Notes under the pieces: generated by a model
Database searches by the model: none
What the model saw: only the letters and a program-made list of their open reading frames with translations
What the model was told of the DNA's origin: nothing
Program-made: the position numbers and the translations under genes
From: a virus
IMG/VR virus record: IMGVR_UViG_3300030107_002762
Location: 1-54,989 of that record
Strand: one strand, 5' to 3'
DNA: 54,989 nucleotides
Shown here: positions 47,938 to 54,989 of the stretch, one piece after another
How positions within the stretch are numbered: the stretch's first letter is position 1
Layout: each line of letters begins with the position of its first letter

Positions 47938-48273
47938 TTATAGCCATCCCGTATGCGGTGCTACTTTTTGATTATCGGAAGCTAATTTAACATCAACTTC
48001 TTTTAACCACTCATCGTAAGCCCTTTTAGTTTGTTCATTATCTTGGTAGAGTTGCATAAACTCTGTCCATTTACTACGAGCGATTTGTACGCCCCTATAA
48101 TAATCACCGTCACCTAACTTACAACGGGTTACTATTTGCCAAACTCTTTGTTTAGTTAAATCGTATTTCTCGCCTAATTCTGCTAACGTTTCTTCTGCAG
48201 TTTTCCAATCATCATAGATTGCTCGATAACGTTTAGCGTTTTGTTCTGCTTTATATGTATCTATACCTCTCAT
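47938..48273 (-). CDS. Helix-turn-helix protein (sigma-region-4-like)
   Basis: A 111-residue protein. Residues 27-50 (EETLAELGEKYDLTKQRVWQ followed by IVTRC) match the region 4 type helix-turn-helix of sigma-70 family factors and related regulators. The rest is helical and charged. It overlaps the start of the polymerase operon end by 4 bases, so it is made with the polymerase. Activation of the phage promoters is a testable idea, not shown. Confidence 0.62.
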   Translation of the reverse strand: MRGIDTYKAEQNAKRYRAIYDDWKTAEETLAELGEKYDLTKQRVWQIVTRCKLGDGDYYRGVQIARSKWTEFMQLYQDNEQTKRAYDEWLKEVDVKLASDNQKVAPHTGWL

Positions 48274-50129
48274 AGTATCTCCTTTGTTTCACCCCAAGAC
48301 TTACCAAGTTCTACATCTACTAACAACGGCACTGCTAATTTTACGCAGTCTTGCATTGTTTTAGAAATAAGTAGAGCTTGTTCTTGATCAACTACCGAAA
48401 CATCAACTTCATCGTGTACTTGTAAGTGTGGAACAATACCTTGTTCCCATAGACCTAACATCGCTAATTTAGTCATGTCAGCTGCTGAACCTTGAATTAA
48501 TCTATTAAGGGCTTTATATGTAAATGATCTTTTTAAATTATCTCCGTATTTTTCTTGAGCTTCTTTTAAAGGCAACGGAGTAGAGCGTTCGTATTTATCT
48601 TCCCATAAATCGAAACGACATCGTCTACCTGCAAAAGTTTTTATATATCCTCTATCCATAGCTACGCGAGTGCAATAATCTTGTAAAGCTCTAATAAAAG
48701 GTACTTTCTCATGGTATTGTAAAAATAGAGCTTCTGCTTCTAAATCATCAACACCTAGTTCTTTAATTAGTTTTTCTTTACCCATGCCATAGCTAAGTCC
48801 TAGATTTATCGTCTTAGCTTGTTTACGTGGTATTTTTGCCATATCTGCTACGATCTGATGAAAGTCAGCATTATCGTCAGTATACTGAGCTACTGCATCT
48901 TTTGCTCCTGTTAAGTTCATCTGATCAGCATAATGTACAGTGAGTCTAGGTTCTTGTTGAGAATAATCAAAAACCCCCCACTGACAACCGTCTTCAGGAA
49001 TAAATAAAGAACGAATAAGATTACCTATCTCAGGGTCACGAGCAGGTACTTGTTGTAGATTAGGATTACTATAACTAAACCGACCACTGACCGTGCCGCC
49101 ACGATCATTACGCATAGCATGAGCTTCCGCGTGTATTCTGCCATTAAAACAATGTTCTTGGATCATCTTCTCAATAAACGTTGTTCTAGCTTTATTTAGT
49201 TTTCTAGCCCTAACGATCAACTGCGGTAGTTCATGCTCATGCCCTTCTAACCAGTCTTTTTGAAAACTAGCCATACCTTTTGCAGTATGCGGATACCAAA
49301 GTTTATTTTTATCAAATATCTCTTGTAACGAAGCGTTAGCCCAAAGATTAACTTCGGCACCATACTTACGTTTTATTTCTACTTGTAACTTTTGTTCTTC
49401 GGTAGAGAGCTGTTTACTAACTTGCTCGGCTCGTTCTTCATCTATTCTAACGCCACGCCATCGCATTTCTAATAACAACGGTATTAAACGACACTCCATA
49501 GCTAATATCTTTTCTAAATCTTGAGCAACAACTTCAGCTTTTAATTTATGCCAAAGTTTTAAAGTCAACGCTGCATCTTGTTGCCCGTAAGGACCAACGT
49601 ATTTTGCAGGTAGTTTATACATCTCTGATTTAGGATTGATACCGAAAGCTAAAGCAGCATCACGTAATAACGATTCATCTTTCTTTTCGTTACAATAAAA
49701 CTCACCTAGATTATCTAACGAATAAGAATAGCGATGTTCATCAACTAAGGGTGCAGCAACTATAGTGTCTAAAATATTGCCTTTTATTTCTACGCCTTCT
49801 CGCCTTAACCAACCTACATCATAGAGTGCATTATGAAATATAACGTCTCGTTTAGTAGAGCTAAGTAGATTACGTAACCAACGTAAAACAATATCTTCAT
49901 CTAAGTTGCCACCGCCCTGATGACGGATAGGAAAATAACCTGACCACTTTTCAGTAGCTACCCCAATACCTACGATATAACCACGACTTGTAGCCCAGCC
50001 TGGACCACAAGTCAATAAGTGTGGGTCGTAAGTTTCTAAGTCTATCGCTACGGTTTCCGTTTCCGAAAACTGCGGAAACACGTCAGGTACAGACCAAGAA
50101 CTTTCGGGAGCAAAAAGTGGTTGCTGCAT
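48270..50129 (-). CDS. polA: Family A DNA polymerase with 3'-5' exonuclease
   Basis: A 619-residue replicative polymerase lacking the 5'-3' exonuclease of bacterial Pol I. Exonuclease: Asp30/Glu32 (AIDLETYD), HNALYDVGWL and YGQQDAALT. Polymerase: motif A DYSQQEPRLTVHYA with Asp388, motif B RKQAKTINLGLSYG with Arg435, Lys439 and Leu443, and motif C VHDEVDV with Asp573. Leu443 stands at the E. coli Phe762 position. In virus surveys that residue is linked to lifestyle and fidelity. It begins an operon with the helix-turn-helix gene and follows the thymidine-metabolism block. Confidence 0.95.
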   Translation of the reverse strand: MQQPLFAPESSWSVPDVFPQFSETETVAIDLETYDPHLLTCGPGWATSRGYIVGIGVATEKWSGYFPIRHQGGGNLDEDIVLRWLRNLLSSTKRDVIFHNALYDVGWLRREGVEIKGNILDTIVAAPLVDEHRYSYSLDNLGEFYCNEKKDESLLRDAALAFGINPKSEMYKLPAKYVGPYGQQDAALTLKLWHKLKAEVVAQDLEKILAMECRLIPLLLEMRWRGVRIDEERAEQVSKQLSTEEQKLQVEIKRKYGAEVNLWANASLQEIFDKNKLWYPHTAKGMASFQKDWLEGHEHELPQLIVRARKLNKARTTFIEKMIQEHCFNGRIHAEAHAMRNDRGGTVSGRFSYSNPNLQQVPARDPEIGNLIRSLFIPEDGCQWGVFDYSQQEPRLTVHYADQMNLTGAKDAVAQYTDDNADFHQIVADMAKIPRKQAKTINLGLSYGMGKEKLIKELGVDDLEAEALFLQYHEKVPFIRALQDYCTRVAMDRGYIKTFAGRRCRFDLWEDKYERSTPLPLKEAQEKYGDNLKRSFTYKALNRLIQGSAADMTKLAMLGLWEQGIVPHLQVHDEVDVSVVDQEQALLISKTMQDCVKLAVPLLVDVELGKSWGETKEIL

Positions 50130-50131
50130 AA

Positions 50132-50422
50132 TTACTTTTTCTTTTTAACTATCTTAGTAACTTTTGCCTTAGGTTTCTTTTTCTTTGGAGCTTTACCGCC
50201 TACCCATGCTTCGTTTACATCAGGAGTAGTAGGGTCGTCCGCTACAAATCTACCTTTTTTACCACGTGCTCGTTTTACTTCTGCTACTTCTTCTTCAAAT
50301 TTATCTAAGGTTACCGTAGCTTCCTCAATAGCTTCTGCTAAAACTTTTTCATCTTTAGTTTCTACAGGTTTTTTAGTATTATCTGTAAAAAATAAATTTC
50401 TTATCCTTTGCCATAAACTCAT
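50132..50422 (-). CDS. Small basic hypothetical protein
   Basis: A 96-residue protein: amphipathic start (LWQRIRNLFFTDNTKKPVET), acidic helix (VLAEAIEEATVTLDKFEEEV) and Lys-rich C-terminus (GKAPKKKKPKAKVTKIVKKK). It starts 2 bases after the stop of the Nmad1-like gene. Might bind DNA or the polymerase; no evidence beyond charge. Confidence 0.6.
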   Translation of the reverse strand: MSLWQRIRNLFFTDNTKKPVETKDEKVLAEAIEEATVTLDKFEEEVAEVKRARGKKGRFVADDPTTPDVNEAWVGGKAPKKKKPKAKVTKIVKKKK

Positions 50423-50424
50423 AA

Positions 50425-50781
50425 TTAATCTCCTGTTGGTATGCCTTCTGAGGTTACTGCTCCAGAATAAATTGCTTTACTCTCTTGCTCAGAATCATTT
50501 ATTAAAATATCGTTTTCTACTAATAATAAATATCTACGTAAATCGCGGATATCATCTAGTAGTCCTGCTTCGCCTTTAAATGCTTCACCTGCTTCAAAGA
50601 TATCCCACCCGTGTTTTTCAGACTGGTGTTCTATCCTATCGAACTTACGTGCTAACATCATAAAAGCCCCTACGCCACCTCTACGTTTCCAAGAGTCACC
50701 GTAAGAAACTTCAGCTCTTTTTAACGCTTCTAGGTCGTTTTGGGCTATGTCTTTCATAGCTTCCCAATTACTAATCGCCAT
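50425..50781 (-). CDS. Nmad1/DUF1599-like small protein
   Basis: A 118-residue all-alpha protein from the ATG at 50781 (AGGAG 6 bases upstream). YGDSWKRRGGVGAFMMLARK, KFDRIE (46-51) and LLDDIRDLRRYLLL (74-87) match the pattern of the nucleotide modification associated domain 1 (DUF1599), a MazG-like all-alpha fold. It sits directly downstream of a thymidylate synthase family gene and a thymine pyrophosphorylase-like gene, the context in which this domain is found in phages with modified DNA. Assignment by pattern, moderate certainty. Confidence 0.6.
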   Translation of the reverse strand: MAISNWEAMKDIAQNDLEALKRAEVSYGDSWKRRGGVGAFMMLARKFDRIEHQSEKHGWDIFEAGEAFKGEAGLLDDIRDLRRYLLLVENDILINDSEQESKAIYSGAVTSEGIPTGD

Positions 50782-50791
50782 AATTTGCTCC

Positions 50792-51862
50792 TTAGTTGTC
50801 CGCAATTTTTAATGTGAAAGTAGTGTCTCGTTTGCGGACCCATTCGAAACACGCTTTCATCCAATCGTATGCTTTAATTTTATTAATCCAAGCATAAGAA
50901 TCCTCGTAACGTCTACGTTTATGAAAAAGATAAGCATTAACCATAGGTATTGCTATATCCCGTATAGACGGATTTTGAAAAGTTTTTATTGGTCCTATAT
51001 AGTCTTTAGTTGAGAACGTTTTACCTGTCGTTATAACATCATCAAACGCCTCAAAAAATAAATCTAATTCCCACTGGAAAGTTTTAGAATGAGTTATTAA
51101 AGGTATAAGGTCTTTTTGTTTAATATATTCATAATCGTTTTTAGTAGAACGCCAACTATAAATATCAATAACGCCTAACTCTTTACAACGCTCCCAAACA
51201 TCGTTTTGATAAACATGAAAACTATCGCTAATTTGAGTATATTCACCAACAGCTATTTCTAATCTCGAAGCAAGATATTCTTGTAACATTGACATATGTA
51301 CTGCGTTAGCACCATAAGCCCCCCAAAGCATATCGTTCGAACGATTACAAACAGTCATGTTTAGTTTTTTATCTCTAACTTTAAAATAAATATTCGTATT
51401 ACAAGGTACGTCTTTACCGTCTCTATCTAAATCTTCTTTGACGTCCCACATCTGTAATACTGCCCGTCTATCGTTAGGGTTACGTCGTAACATAGCGATA
51501 ATAATTTCTAATTGATCTTTATCAAAATAATCTCGCCAACGCCAACCGTACGCCCCCCATAGAGTCTCATTATCATCAGAAAAATCTCGCATAGAGTTTA
51601 CAAAAAAAGTTAAAGGTCTTAAATCTTTACGTCCATGTAACATCCATAGACCTTCTATAAAATGGAAAAAAGGATTAGCATCGCGTTTTTCACAAAACAA
51701 TACACGTTCTGTAGGTTTTTGATAGACCGTAGCTACTGGTTCTATCGCTTCTAATGTTAACCCGTTTCTACTTTCTTGTTCTCGATAATTAGTTTTATCT
51801 AAAAAGAAATCGACACCTAATTTAAAAGCGTCGTTTATATTTCGTGCGGTTATTACTTTCAT
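50792..51862 (-). CDS. Thymidylate synthase / dUMP hydroxymethylase family
   Basis: A 356-residue enzyme of the thymidylate synthase fold. Catalytic Cys154 (VPCNTNIYF), RSND-type phosphate region (CNRSNDMLWGAYGANAVHMS) with Asn186 at the base-specifying position (uracil rather than cytosine), and ISDSFHVYQND with the conserved His-x-Tyr are visible. Also FFHFIEGLWMLHGRKDL and LWGAYGWRWRDY match family blocks. It could make dTMP or, as in phages with modified thymine, 5-hydroxymethyl-dUMP. The neighbour at 51859-52776 favours the second, but sequence alone does not decide. Confidence 0.85.
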   Translation of the reverse strand: MKVITARNINDAFKLGVDFFLDKTNYREQESRNGLTLEAIEPVATVYQKPTERVLFCEKRDANPFFHFIEGLWMLHGRKDLRPLTFFVNSMRDFSDDNETLWGAYGWRWRDYFDKDQLEIIIAMLRRNPNDRRAVLQMWDVKEDLDRDGKDVPCNTNIYFKVRDKKLNMTVCNRSNDMLWGAYGANAVHMSMLQEYLASRLEIAVGEYTQISDSFHVYQNDVWERCKELGVIDIYSWRSTKNDYEYIKQKDLIPLITHSKTFQWELDLFFEAFDDVITTGKTFSTKDYIGPIKTFQNPSIRDIAIPMVNAYLFHKRRRYEDSYAWINKIKAYDWMKACFEWVRKRDTTFTLKIADN

Positions 51863-52776
51863 AATTCGTATTTGCTTTTACCTGCTACTACATCTTCTAC
51901 TATAGGCAAGTCGTTTTGTTTATAGATAGAACGTGTCCTACCCTCATTTTTAAGAATACGTGAGTATTTATCAAACTCACATAAACCCCCTTCTATCTCC
52001 CTTAATTCATAGTTAACAGAGTTTCTTTTAGTAACCCAAGAATTTCTTTCGAATGCTATTTTTAACAACTCTTGCATTTCACTGTTCCAATCATGACTAC
52101 GTAAACAATAATCTAATGGTCTACCTGTCAAACGATTAAGACCTCGCATAGCTCCTGGACCTGCATTAGCCCAAGTCATAATATCATTAGCTTCATCTAA
52201 TAAATAAGTATGTCTTAAATCAGTAACAACCTCGTACGCCATAAATGGACCCATGTAAGGATAATCTCGTAAAGTTTCCCAACAAAACTCTAAAGAAGAA
52301 TTGTTTAATGCTTTTTTATTTTCTAATTTAGTTACTAAATAATCTCTGTCGTTCCACATATGACTTATACATTCAGCTACCCCTGTAACTTTATCCATAC
52401 GATTAGGGGTTTTAATAATATAAGAACCAGTAATCCATTTAGGTTGTTTTTTAATAAGTTCAATAGCTTTCTTCCTATTCCAATTAAACAATAAATCATT
52501 TTCTATTAATGTCCTTCCTGTTTCTATTAAATTAAACCACCTAAAAATTATTACTGCCATAAAAACTCTAGGGTCGTCTCGTAACGGTTCTCTAATATGT
52601 TTTTTAAGCCACCGAGTAGTCCTATCTTCTTCTCGATAAACTTGACAGAATTTAAACTCTTGTAAAATAGGATCATTAGTCCAAGGGGGCGGTAAATCAT
52701 TTTCTTTCTTTTTACGAATACTTTCCCGTTCTTCTTGCCAGTAAAAATATCTATCAAGTTCTTCTGCAATAAACAT
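51859..52776 (-). CDS. aGPT-pyrophosphorylase / hmdU kinase helical-domain-like protein
   Basis: A 305-residue helix-hairpin-helix family protein. FCQVYREEDRTTRWLKKH (43-60), GPFMAYEVVTDLRHT (176-190) and TWANAGPGAMRGLNRLTGRP (201-220) are the blocks of the alpha-glutamyl/putrescinyl-thymine pyrophosphorylase group (clade 3, HMUDK helical domain type). These act in making hypermodified thymines from 5-hydroxymethyluracil DNA in phages. The ATG overlaps the synthase stop by 4 bases, linking the two in translation. No separate P-loop kinase is seen in the window, so the final modification is unknown. Confidence 0.8.
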   Translation of the reverse strand: MFIAEELDRYFYWQEERESIRKKKENDLPPPWTNDPILQEFKFCQVYREEDRTTRWLKKHIREPLRDDPRVFMAVIIFRWFNLIETGRTLIENDLLFNWNRKKAIELIKKQPKWITGSYIIKTPNRMDKVTGVAECISHMWNDRDYLVTKLENKKALNNSSLEFCWETLRDYPYMGPFMAYEVVTDLRHTYLLDEANDIMTWANAGPGAMRGLNRLTGRPLDYCLRSHDWNSEMQELLKIAFERNSWVTKRNSVNYELREIEGGLCEFDKYSRILKNEGRTRSIYKQNDLPIVEDVVAGKSKYEL

Positions 52777-53627
52777 TACTTCTTAGTTAGTCTCCAAGCA
52801 CAGTTATTAGCGTGTTCAGGATACATAGTCGCTGCTGCCATACGTAAAAACTGTTTACCGAAACGTTCACTTAACATAATCATTTGTTCGTCTGACCACT
52901 CTATTTTTAAATCACGAGTGCCATCAAACCTAGCTTTCTTTAAATTAGGCATTTGTATAAACGTACCCGTGACCGCTTCAATATTAAAGTTACGTTCTAA
53001 TTCTTCTTTTAGTTCTTCAAAGCCCCACTCATAAACGTGGTCTTCAGGTAACTTATCATTTGACCCGTCATGGTTAGGTGTAGAAACATAGCCCAGTGCG
53101 TCAGGTCGCATAACCCTAGCTACATCATCTAACCATGCGGGTACAAACTCTCTACCCATATGTTCAATAACTTCGGTAGACCAAAAGAAATCTATACTTT
53201 CATCAGGTAAATCAAACACAGGGTTTACCGTTAAATCTTGTATTCTTATTTGTCCGTTAAAGTTTTTAAACCAAGTAGATTCTTCTAACCTACCTCCTGC
53301 GTTAGACCAAAATTTATTTTCTAACTCACACGCGGGGTCAATATCGTAACCATAATAAGAACGGATAATATCAGACTTTTTAACTACGTATGCTTTATAT
53401 AAACAACGTAACGCCCAACACTCTCCACAACCAACTTCTAAAGTGTCTAAGGGTCTACCCAACACTTTAGCTTCATCTATCGCTAAACTAGCAATTTTAT
53501 CAAAACGACTCATATGAGCTAATTCATCTGGTCGCCAGTTACCTAGTACTCCTGCTGAAGCAAGGTCCATTCTAGTATTTTTACTATCGTTTTCATTGAC
53601 AGTAAGTTTCTTTCTAATTGATGACAT
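52776..53627 (-). CDS. SAM-dependent methyltransferase-like protein
   Basis: A 283-residue class I methyltransferase. Motif I LEVGCGECWAL (63-73), the acidic residue of motif II (YYGYDIDP, Asp95), IDFFWSTEVIEHMG and a motif VI-like GYVSTPNHDG fit a methyltransferase domain of the type 11/23 group. The substrate is not evident; its place upstream of the thymine-modification genes suggests a role in nucleotide modification, but other substrates are possible. The leader GAAAGGAGAATAT precedes the ATG. Confidence 0.75.
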   Translation of the reverse strand: MSSIRKKLTVNENDSKNTRMDLASAGVLGNWRPDELAHMSRFDKIASLAIDEAKVLGRPLDTLEVGCGECWALRCLYKAYVVKKSDIIRSYYGYDIDPACELENKFWSNAGGRLEESTWFKNFNGQIRIQDLTVNPVFDLPDESIDFFWSTEVIEHMGREFVPAWLDDVARVMRPDALGYVSTPNHDGSNDKLPEDHVYEWGFEELKEELERNFNIEAVTGTFIQMPNLKKARFDGTRDLKIEWSDEQMIMLSERFGKQFLRMAAATMYPEHANNCAWRLTKK

Positions 53628-53697: not shown

Positions 53698-54989
53698 TTA
53701 TACTTGATAACAGCGTGTTGTTTTAGGTTCAATCAAATATAAATTCTCTTTCGTTCTAGTAATACCTACATAAAACACTCTGTTTTCATCATCAGGATTA
53801 CGTTGGTAGTTTTTATAAACTCGTGCCGTAATATCCGTTAATAACACTACATTAGTTGCCTCTCCGCCTTTTGCTGCATGAATAGTAGATAAACGTATAC
53901 GTGGTTCTTTTGTTATTTTTTCTCCTCTACGTAACATAGCTCGTATATAACTTATTTCTTTTACACTTAACATAGTAAAAGCATCATACCAACGACCTTC
54001 AGGTAAATCAGGAAACATATTTTTTAAATCTTGATACTGCATAGTCAAATCAGCATCAACCACTTCTAGTTTTTTACTATCTTTAATCCGCATATATTTC
54101 AAAATATTTATACACTCAACCATAGGTATTGTTCTACCTTGATTTAATCGTTCCCAATTTATTACGGCTCTGATTTTCTTTTCAGAGATACTAGGTCTAC
54201 CTTTTACTTCAAAAAACCAACCTTGGTTTCTACAATACTCGTCTACTTCTTCTAATAAATAATTAGTCCTAGCTAACACTAGCCACTCACCTTCTTCCAT
54301 ATTTACTAATTCAATAGTTGGTTCCCAACGTACGGTGCCTTGTTCTTTTCTAGGCGTCCATTCTTTATAAATTCTAGAACGTACTTGGTCGATACAACGT
54401 TTAGCTACTTCATGCACTTCTAAAGGTACGCGATATGATTGTTTTAAAACTAAAGCATTAGTAGAGTTTTTAATTAAATATTCAACATCTGCCCCTGCCC
54501 ATTTATAAATTGCTTGATCATCATCACCTGCAACATAAATACGATCAGCTTTTTCTGTTAGTTTACGTACTACCGCCCATTGTAGCGGTGATAAATCTTG
54601 AGCTTCATCTACGAACATAACATCTAATTTAGGCACATCACCACGTAATAAAAATTGTTGTAACATATCTGTATAATCAACTAATAATCTATCTTCTTTA
54701 AACAAACGTAGCCCTCTAGCGTAACGTTCTAACTCAAACCACCCTACTGCGTCTTCTACTTCGTGCCATTGTTGTTCTAACGGTATCTCTCGCATACGAG
54801 CTAAGTTTTCTATAAACGCTAAACGATCATCATGGGTCATGGCAAATAAATGTCCATCGTCTGAGTTAGTACGACCCGTTAAACGAATATTTAATTTTTC
54901 ATTTAAGTCTAATATATCTGAATGACTTATAACACTTTCTCTACTAAGCCCTAATTGTCTAAACGCTAATGAATGTAACGTTCTAAAAA
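53698..54989 (-). CDS. UvrD/Rep-like superfamily 1 helicase, 5' truncated
   Basis: A 3'-5' helicase fragment of about 430 codons that runs off the right end of the window. The frame is open to base 54989 through FRTLHSLAFRQLGL (motif Ib), so the ATG at 54840 is internal. Visible motifs are VDEAQDLSPLQW (II), AGDDDQAIYKWAG (III), LKQSYRVP (IV), LSTIHAAKGGEATNVVL (V) and RVFYVGITRTKENLYLI (VI). The Walker A motif lies outside. The enzyme likely serves phage replication or recombination. It ends 7 bases before a promoter for the next operon. Confidence 0.92.
   Translation of the reverse strand, partial: FRTLHSLAFRQLGLSRESVISHSDILDLNEKLNIRLTGRTNSDDGHLFAMTHDDRLAFIENLARMREIPLEQQWHEVEDAVGWFELERYARGLRLFKEDRLLVDYTDMLQQFLLRGDVPKLDVMFVDEAQDLSPLQWAVVRKLTEKADRIYVAGDDDQAIYKWAGADVEYLIKNSTNALVLKQSYRVPLEVHEVAKRCIDQVRSRIYKEWTPRKEQGTVRWEPTIELVNMEEGEWLVLARTNYLLEEVDEYCRNQGWFFEVKGRPSISEKKIRAVINWERLNQGRTIPMVECINILKYMRIKDSKKLEVVDADLTMQYQDLKNMFPDLPEGRWYDAFTMLSVKEISYIRAMLRRGEKITKEPRIRLSTIHAAKGGEATNVVLLTDITARVYKNYQRNPDDENRVFYVGITRTKENLYLIEPKTTRCYQV

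Follow-up and report, generated by a model that had tools for sequence, protein, structure and literature searches.

The window analyzed here is the whole of the IMG/VR virus record IMGVR_UViG_3300030107_002762 (54,989 bases), a tailed-phage genome whose minus strand carries a cassette of a class I S-adenosylmethionine (SAM)-dependent methyltransferase (MT), an HMUDK_hel/aGPT-PPlase1 protein (HEL), and a thymidylate synthase (TS)-family enzyme, which we predict to be concerned with the modification of thymine positions in the phage DNA. The carriers of this cassette are marine relatives of pelagiphages; the terminase large subunit (TerL) and family A DNA polymerase (PolA) of the window are 51-60% and 47-52% identical, respectively, to those of HTVC023P-type pelagiphages, phage 023Pt_psg01, and Phage DSL-LC04. 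The genes run on the minus strand in the order UvrD - MT - HEL - TS - 126 aa - 96 aa - PolA, as follows:

53698..54987, minus strand: UvrD-like helicase, 5' end cut by the window (PF00580, E = 8.7e-15; phrog_1967, E = 4.6e-65)
52776..53627, minus strand: MT, class I SAM-dependent methyltransferase, 283 aa (PF13489/PF08241, Methyltransf_23/11, E = 5e-8/1e-6)
51859..52776, minus strand: HEL, HMUDK_hel/aGPT-PPlase1 protein, 305 aa (PF18723, E = 2.4e-43; phrog_2396, E = 2.4e-61)
50792..51862, minus strand: TS-family enzyme, 356 aa (PF00303, Thymidylat_synt, E = 3.2e-23; phrog_5131, E = 3.8e-107)
50425..50805, minus strand: 126-aa orphan protein with no convincing Pfam or PHROG match
50132..50422, minus strand: 96-aa Lys-rich small protein, missing or diverged in several relatives
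48270..50129, minus strand: PolA with a 3'-5' exonuclease domain (PF00476, E = 3.5e-62)

The cassette genes are overlapping open reading frames (ORFs): MT and HEL overlap by 1 nt, the HEL start codon overlapping the MT stop codon, and HEL and TS overlap by 4 nt. An earlier note on this DNA had proposed a four-gene operon of a methyltransferase, an HMUDK/aGPT-PPlase-type protein, a TS-family enzyme, and an Nmad1-like protein; an operon of four genes is indeed present at the positions that it gave, and the Methyltransf_23/11 matches and the PF18723 search that the note had called for bear out its first two members. The gene order is kept across 80 related contigs, which is far beyond chance. A hidden Markov model (HMM) of MT matches 78 of the 80 HEL-matched IMG/VR contigs (HEL identity, 62-100%), always directly upstream of HEL, and the two contigs without MT (L009 and L055) begin within or at HEL; a TS gene was recovered in 79 of the 80, the remaining one (L072) ending in HEL. 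In the informative comparisons, the ratio of nonsynonymous to synonymous substitution rates (dN/dS) was 0.04 to 0.17 for MT, HEL, and TS. The UvrD-like helicase, which is complete at 498 aa in a near-identical contig (L004/L264), lies upstream of the cassette in those relatives whose contigs reach that far, and we treat it as a frame gene; the 96-aa Lys-rich protein is probably not part of the pathway.

To classify the TS-family enzyme, we compared active sites in a 25-sequence alignment, using Escherichia coli numbering. The window enzyme has Glu58, Met80, Phe83, Cys146, Asn147, Asn165, Arg166, Ser167, Asp169, Asn177, His207, and Tyr209, and at these sites it is identical to both the annotated dUMP (deoxyuridine monophosphate) hydroxymethylase of phage SPO1 (gp29) and the PaMx11 enzyme; that of M6 departs from it only at position 83 (Tyr for Phe). 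E. coli ThyA and T4-like Td retain Trp80, His147, and Gln165, and the window enzyme departs from them at positions 80, 83, 147, and 165 (W80>M, H147>N, Q165>N) while keeping Asn177, the uracil-type Asn named in the earlier note. The dCMP (deoxycytidine monophosphate)-type enzyme T4 gp42 has Thr147 and Met165, with position 177 aligning as Asp in the larger alignment and as Tyr in the smaller one. The uracil-type (U-type) signature was found in all 79 relatives scored, 67 of them identical and 12 with Cys for Asn at position 165, and the closest PDB match of the window enzyme is the CMP 5-hydroxymethylase MilA. Because the active-site signature is identical to that of SPO1 gp29, the product is likely to be 5-hydroxymethyl-dUMP. 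That it is instead an ordinary phage TS boosting the supply of dTMP (deoxythymidine monophosphate), next to which HEL and MT would be unrelated genes of DNA metabolism, might be suggested by the thymidylate synthase label of its Pfam and PHROG matches and by the annotation of most phage homologs as dTMP synthases. However, Trp80, Trp83, His147, and Gln165 of ThyA are all replaced as in SPO1 gp29, and HEL is accompanied by an Asn177/Asn147-type TS in 153 of 153 scored cases and is absent from all 19 MT-only records that were searched over their full length (15 from IMG/VR and four phage records), making this alternative very improbable.

HEL is 42% identical to PaMx11 gp50 and 37.5% identical to M6 gp55, both from phages with hypermodified thymidine, and HMUDK_hel has so far been regarded as a pyrophosphorylase or kinase domain. 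The structural model of HEL is all-helical (predicted local distance difference test score [pLDDT], 94.7), and in Foldseek searches with this model, DNA glycosylases of the AlkA/OGG1/AGOG type recur among the best matches, all at E > 1; a 62-member HEL profile had no match among PDB sequences. Asp198, Arg211, Glu262, Cys266, and Lys270 are invariant in HEL. In the HEL tree, proteins of the MT group form one clade (Shimodaira-Hasegawa-like approximate likelihood ratio test [SH-aLRT] support, 97), which is joined to PaMx11 HEL (support, 99), itself on a long branch. As detailed below, HEL is kept in cassettes without a kinase or amino acid transferase, and it is hence unlikely to be specific to that chemistry; we predict that it is a DNA recognition partner that presents the 5-hydroxymethyl-2'-deoxyuridine (5-hmdU) base.

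The enzymes that carry the M6/ViI-type pathway forward are a P-loop 5-hmdU DNA kinase and an amino acid:DNA transferase (ADDT). Were the window cassette of this classical M6/PaMx11 type, 5-hmdU would be phosphorylated, an amino acid or amine would be attached, and MT would tailor the resulting adduct, for which the homology of HEL and TS to their M6 and PaMx11 counterparts and the shared gene frame might speak. Against it, neither the kinase (PF18748) nor ADDT (PF18724) is present in the window, in the bridging contig G001, or in the other clade records searched, and in 32 further relatives there is no match above the cutoff to PF18748, PF18724, or the sugar transferase TAGT (PF20691). The bridging contig (37,291 bp), which is 99.1 to 99.9% identical to the window over their overlaps, crosses both window ends and adds 4,565 bp between them, such that about 59.6 kb are covered in all. 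Many clade records are fragments, in which any one absence is weak alone, and it is the closed genome, together with the intact gene order, on which the argument relies. Our own HMMs for the kinase, ADDT, TAGT, radical SAM, pyridoxal phosphate (PLP), flavin adenine dinucleotide (FAD), acetyltransferase, Nmad5, HD, and dCMP deaminase proteins had no matches in either the window or the bridging stretch; a scan for Walker A motifs picked out the UvrD helicase, the only protein of note, and a single 100-aa ORF. We likewise rejected a kinase encoded at another place in the genome, since the Pfam model, the PaMx11 kinase sequence (a single-sequence search with no positive control of its own), our three-sequence HMM, and the Walker A scan all came back empty. 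As positive controls, the kinase and ADDT were recovered in M6 and PaMx11 (the PaMx11 match to PF18748 falling below the cutoff), the kinase in Sonora and a ViI-type Kuttervirus, and TAGT in the sister group described below; our kinase HMM recovers divergent kinases at roughly 60 to 350 bits in other loci. In this Kuttervirus, the PF18748 protein and HEL are encoded separately, at a distance of about 49 kb. Thus, we consider the classical route quite unlikely here, and of the known thymine hypermodification set that the earlier note recognized, the dUMP hydroxymethylase signature and HMUDK_hel stand, while the kinase and the transferase are absent.

Comparison of gene neighborhoods indicates what occupies the place of the kinase. 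The PaMx11 locus reads ADDT, FAD enzyme, acetyltransferase, P-loop kinase, HEL, TS, HD, and, further on, PolA, with the kinase overlapping the HEL start, and that of M6 reads ADDT, PLP, radical SAM, kinase, HEL, Nmad5, TS, HD, and, further on, PolA. The slot directly upstream of HEL is hence held by MT in the window clade versus the P-loop kinase in PaMx11. (The genes annotated as the terminase small subunit in these two phages, PaMx11 gp49 [L002] and M6 gp54 [L003], are P-loop 5-hmdU kinase-like by Pfam, gp54 with PF18748 above the cutoff and gp49 with AAA_33 and a sub-cutoff PF18748 match.) A wider HEL search recovered at least 591 loci, of which the best 80 were read: all 74 TS-family enzymes scored among these are of the U type, 26 of the loci have a recognizable kinase, and our TAGT HMM matches 44, an approximate count because that HMM was built from length-selected ORFs of the same loci. 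Among these loci is a sister group of marine phages that has the UvrD/HEL/TS/p126/PolA frame of the window; it lacks MT, and TAGT is placed between its HEL and TS genes. Pfam confirms TAGT with PF20691 (E = 5.8e-26 for one locus), which is above the cutoff in five of five sister records tested and in none of the window and 33 clade records. Given these arrangements, HEL and the dUMP hydroxymethylase look like a constant core, to which a kinase, a glycosyltransferase, or a methyltransferase is added as an alternative. All three kinds of enzyme can act on a hydroxyl, and that of 5-hydroxymethyluracil would be their common target.

Several further variants were seen among the HEL loci. Sister marine phages (L210-L261; e.g., L220:8837-9619 and L246:12113-12529) often encode a TagD-like cytidylyltransferase a few genes beyond TAGT, which together suggest glycosylation of 5-hmdU, perhaps from a CDP-activated donor. 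In a few loci, a further HEL/TS subgroup (L212:6761-8867 region; L229:6761-8008), the gene immediately upstream of HEL encodes a GT4-type glycosyltransferase (PF00534), with no kinase, MT, or TAGT nearby. In sister phages (L242:7159-7653), a pyrimidine dimer DNA glycosylase (PF03013) lies between UvrD and HEL, the position of MT in the window clade.

MT itself is predicted to have the class I methyltransferase fold (pLDDT, 86.6), and 67 aligned sequences share an invariant GCG in motif I and EVIEH-type positions, with PF13489 above the cutoff. Foldseek recovered the natural-product methyltransferases TleD (E = 8.5e-11), AtmM, and RebM among its top matches, while PDB sequence searches with HEL and MT yielded nothing informative. 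We then considered where else the family occurs. Among 50,697 phage records, there are only five matches, namely, AXL3 (twice), PW916, and two Manatee Spring phages, and all five have a TS-family hydroxymethylase a few genes off, along with a dCMP deaminase and a nucleoside triphosphate (NTP) pyrophosphohydrolase or "hydrolase"; as a rough comparison for this pairing, relatives of the window TS occur in 2,320 of the same records (about 5%). A search of IMG/VR with an MT alignment recovered at least 316 viral members. (Lone queries fared worse in scans of viral contigs: the Manatee Spring podovirus MT gave no matches and PaMx11 HEL matched only PaMx11 itself, where alignment queries did match.) We read the loci of the best 80 of these members and of four genome collection matches; six with too little downstream sequence were set aside, as was L181, a Gammaproteobacteria metagenome-assembled genome with a spurious MT match. 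In 75 of the 77 informative loci, a TS-family gene lies downstream of the MT homolog on the same strand within about 4 kb, and all 74 TS-family enzymes scored beside HEL-less MT homologs are of the cytosine type (C type; Asp177 and Thr or Ser147). In the MT tree, a single branch separates the U-type from the C-type MTs, although long branches meet at this place. In the loci read, neither HEL nor a kinase, ADDT, or TAGT was found near these HEL-less homologs; a carbamoyltransferase was also not found in the MT loci, in a search without a positive control.

The cultured Stenotrophomonas phage AXL3 provides an experimental point of reference for the C-type loci; for the window clade, no member in culture was found. 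The virion DNA of AXL3 resists 35 of 37 restriction enzymes, the exceptions being TasI and Tru1I, which have recognition sites of A and T only; in that report, the gene is called thymidylate synthase and no particular modification is assigned (PMC7504290). This restriction pattern fits a modification of cytosine, as would be predicted from the Asp177 of the AXL3 enzyme. The products annotated "thymidylate synthase" or "deoxyuridylate hydroxymethyltransferase" in AXL3 and PW916 carry Asp177/Thr147 (C-type MT loci L098-L179; AXL3, L097:5851-8993); judging from these residues, they are probably dCMP hydroxymethylases, and their present annotation seems wrong.

These associations bear on two further alternatives. 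The first is that the phage DNA contains plain 5-hmdU, as in SPO1, and that MT has some other substrate, such as a different base, a protein, or a small molecule; it gains some plausibility from SPO1, which is annotated with a dUMP hydroxymethylase and no adjoining MT or HEL, and from the membership of MT in a broad superfamily of small-molecule methyltransferases. Yet MT homologs sit beside TS-family hydroxymethylases and switch base type together with them, the U-type and C-type MTs have conserved N- and C-terminal motifs in common, and MT, TAGT, and the kinase-ADDT pair are alternatives to one another within HEL/TS cassettes of one kind, all of which make this alternative rather unlikely. 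The second is that MT transfers another SAM-derived group, such as carboxymethyl or aminocarboxypropyl, or methylates another atom of the base after hydroxymethylation. The transferred group is not one that sequence alone can discriminate, and phage enzymes of the SAM type can employ unusual donors: for instance, a Synechococcus phage encodes CmoX, a DNA cytosine C5-carboxymethyltransferase (PMC12783734). However, none of the annotated proteins was recognized as supplying an unusual SAM donor, and because the MT family tracks both 5-hydroxymethylcytosine (5hmC)-type and 5-hydroxymethyluracil-type hydroxymethylases, the 5-CH2OH group is favored as the common target; we accordingly give this second alternative little credence.

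The reading that we favor as fairly probable is that the cassette makes a methyl-capped 5-hydroxymethyluracil in the phage DNA, with MT producing 5-methoxymethyl-2'-deoxyuridine. The TS-family enzyme would likely convert dUMP and methylene-tetrahydrofolate to 5-hydroxymethyl-dUMP, which other kinases would phosphorylate and PolA would insert in place of some or all of the thymine. The all-helical HEL, possibly of a DNA glycosylase-like build, may then recognize or present 5-hmdU in the DNA, and the SAM-dependent MT, as its genomic context implies, would methylate the oxygen of the 5-CH2OH group. MT would thereby stand in for the P-loop 5-hmdU kinase of PaMx11 and perform an equivalent job, namely, blocking the hydroxyl, and the outcome would be resistance to host nucleases that recognize T-containing sites. 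The presence of HEL suggests that the U-type MT step may take place on DNA rather than on the nucleotide; no HEL accompanies the C-type MTs. The suggestion of the earlier note that the genome DNA may be modified is thus upheld to the extent that the dUMP hydroxymethylase and HMUDK_hel make modified thymine positions probable, and its idea that the methyltransferase could yield an additional, novel modification gains strength from the genome context data.

Several observations weigh against this proposal. The acceptor atom of MT is deduced from genome context, and its fold class spans O-, N-, and C-methyltransferases; identity between the U-type and the C-type MTs is only about 25%. The glycosylase-like structural matches of HEL are nonsignificant, and its PDB profile search was empty. 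Neither the window nor the bridging stretch was found to encode a dedicated 5-hydroxymethyl-dUMP kinase, a dTMP phosphatase (HD), or a dCMP deaminase, for which reason the replacement of thymine may be partial. Finally, HTVC027P and 023Pt_psg01, which are of the same phage type, have no cassette genes between the helicase and PolA, so the cassette is not essential to this type.

More tentatively, and with somewhat less confidence than an even chance, we propose that MT typifies an undescribed family of 5-hydroxymethylpyrimidine O-methyltransferases, which would make 5-methoxymethylcytosine in many phages and the uracil equivalent in this marine clade, and that HEL is a general adaptor for 5-hmdU-containing DNA, with kinases, glycosyltransferases, and methyltransferases as its interchangeable partners. 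If the proposal is correct, the product would be a DNA base not yet described, and a methyl ether would join the known decorations of 5-hydroxymethylpyrimidines (phosphate/amino acid, sugar, and carbamoyl). It would also provide a testable function for a large viral methyltransferase family common to 5hmC-type and 5-hydroxymethyluracil-type phages and change the question posed by HMUDK_hel, HEL being kept where there is no kinase or amino acid transferase. We found no mention of a methoxymethyl phage base in the literature searched, which left out key primary papers on thymidine hypermodification; novelty of a 5-hmdU pathway in which a methyltransferase replaces the kinase and amino acid steps accordingly means that it was not found here and is not proven.

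As for the remaining genes of the neighborhood, the 126-aa orphan family is strongly conserved (SYGDSWKRRGGVGAFMMLARK...LDDIRDLRRYLLLVE; in the window protein, SYGDSWKRRGGVGAFMMLARKFDRIE...LDDIRDLRRYLLLVE) and accompanies HEL and TS in both marine groups. The earlier note had taken the window member for an Nmad1-like protein and had suggested a search for DUF1599; no Pfam family, including Nmad1/DUF1599 (PF07659), is above the cutoff in this protein or 22 homologs, and we reject that identity for all 23 members. Directly upstream of UvrD, this phage and its relatives encode an AlkB-like 2-oxoglutarate (2OG)-Fe(II) oxygenase (L264:4580-5161, L180:1949-2533, and L230:132-719), recognized by PF13532 in L230 and by sequence likeness in the others. 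PolA scored 369 bits against the DpoZ model NF038380, below its cutoff of 500, and an aminoadenine (Z-genome) polymerase was rejected on this basis, PurZ, DatZ, and MazZ not having been searched for separately.

The cassette can be placed among known systems as follows. It resembles the thymidine hypermodification systems of M6, PaMx11, and ViI in the dUMP hydroxymethylase signature, HMUDK_hel, and the location between a UvrD/Dda-like helicase and PolA, and PaMx11 furthermore in that the gene upstream of HEL overlaps its start, as MT does; unlike them, it has no P-loop 5-hmdU DNA kinase, ADDT, or PLP, radical SAM, FAD, or acetyltransferase tailoring genes. With the SPO1-type 5-hydroxymethyluracil phages it shares the identical gp29 active-site signature, but the annotation of the 35-kb SPO1 stretch examined shows neither HEL nor MT next to gene 29. 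For HTVC023P-type pelagiphages, the main text of a previous report notes TS and aG/PT-PPlase1 in clades V, VIII, and IX, nowhere uses the word "methyltransferase," and in its passages is silent on a missing 5-hmdU kinase (PMC9599517); HTVC027P and 023Pt_psg01 differ from the window in the same interval between the helicase and PolA. In the MetaGPA study, a carbamoyltransferase adjoining Asp177 hydroxymethylases acts on the 5hmC hydroxyl (PMC8670742), a precedent for the role proposed for MT, and this cassette is comparable in that a hydroxyl-decorating enzyme adjoins a TS-family hydroxymethylase and in its PRA-PH/dCMP deaminase neighbors, which the C-type MT cassettes also have; it differs from the window in transferring carbamoyl rather than methyl, in acting on cytosine rather than uracil, and in that no HEL is reported. 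In the TAGT systems of the sister group, a sugar transferase, often with a TagD-like cytidylyltransferase, replaces the methyltransferase, but the UvrD...HEL...TS...p126...PolA frame, the U-type TS, and HEL are all shared with the window.

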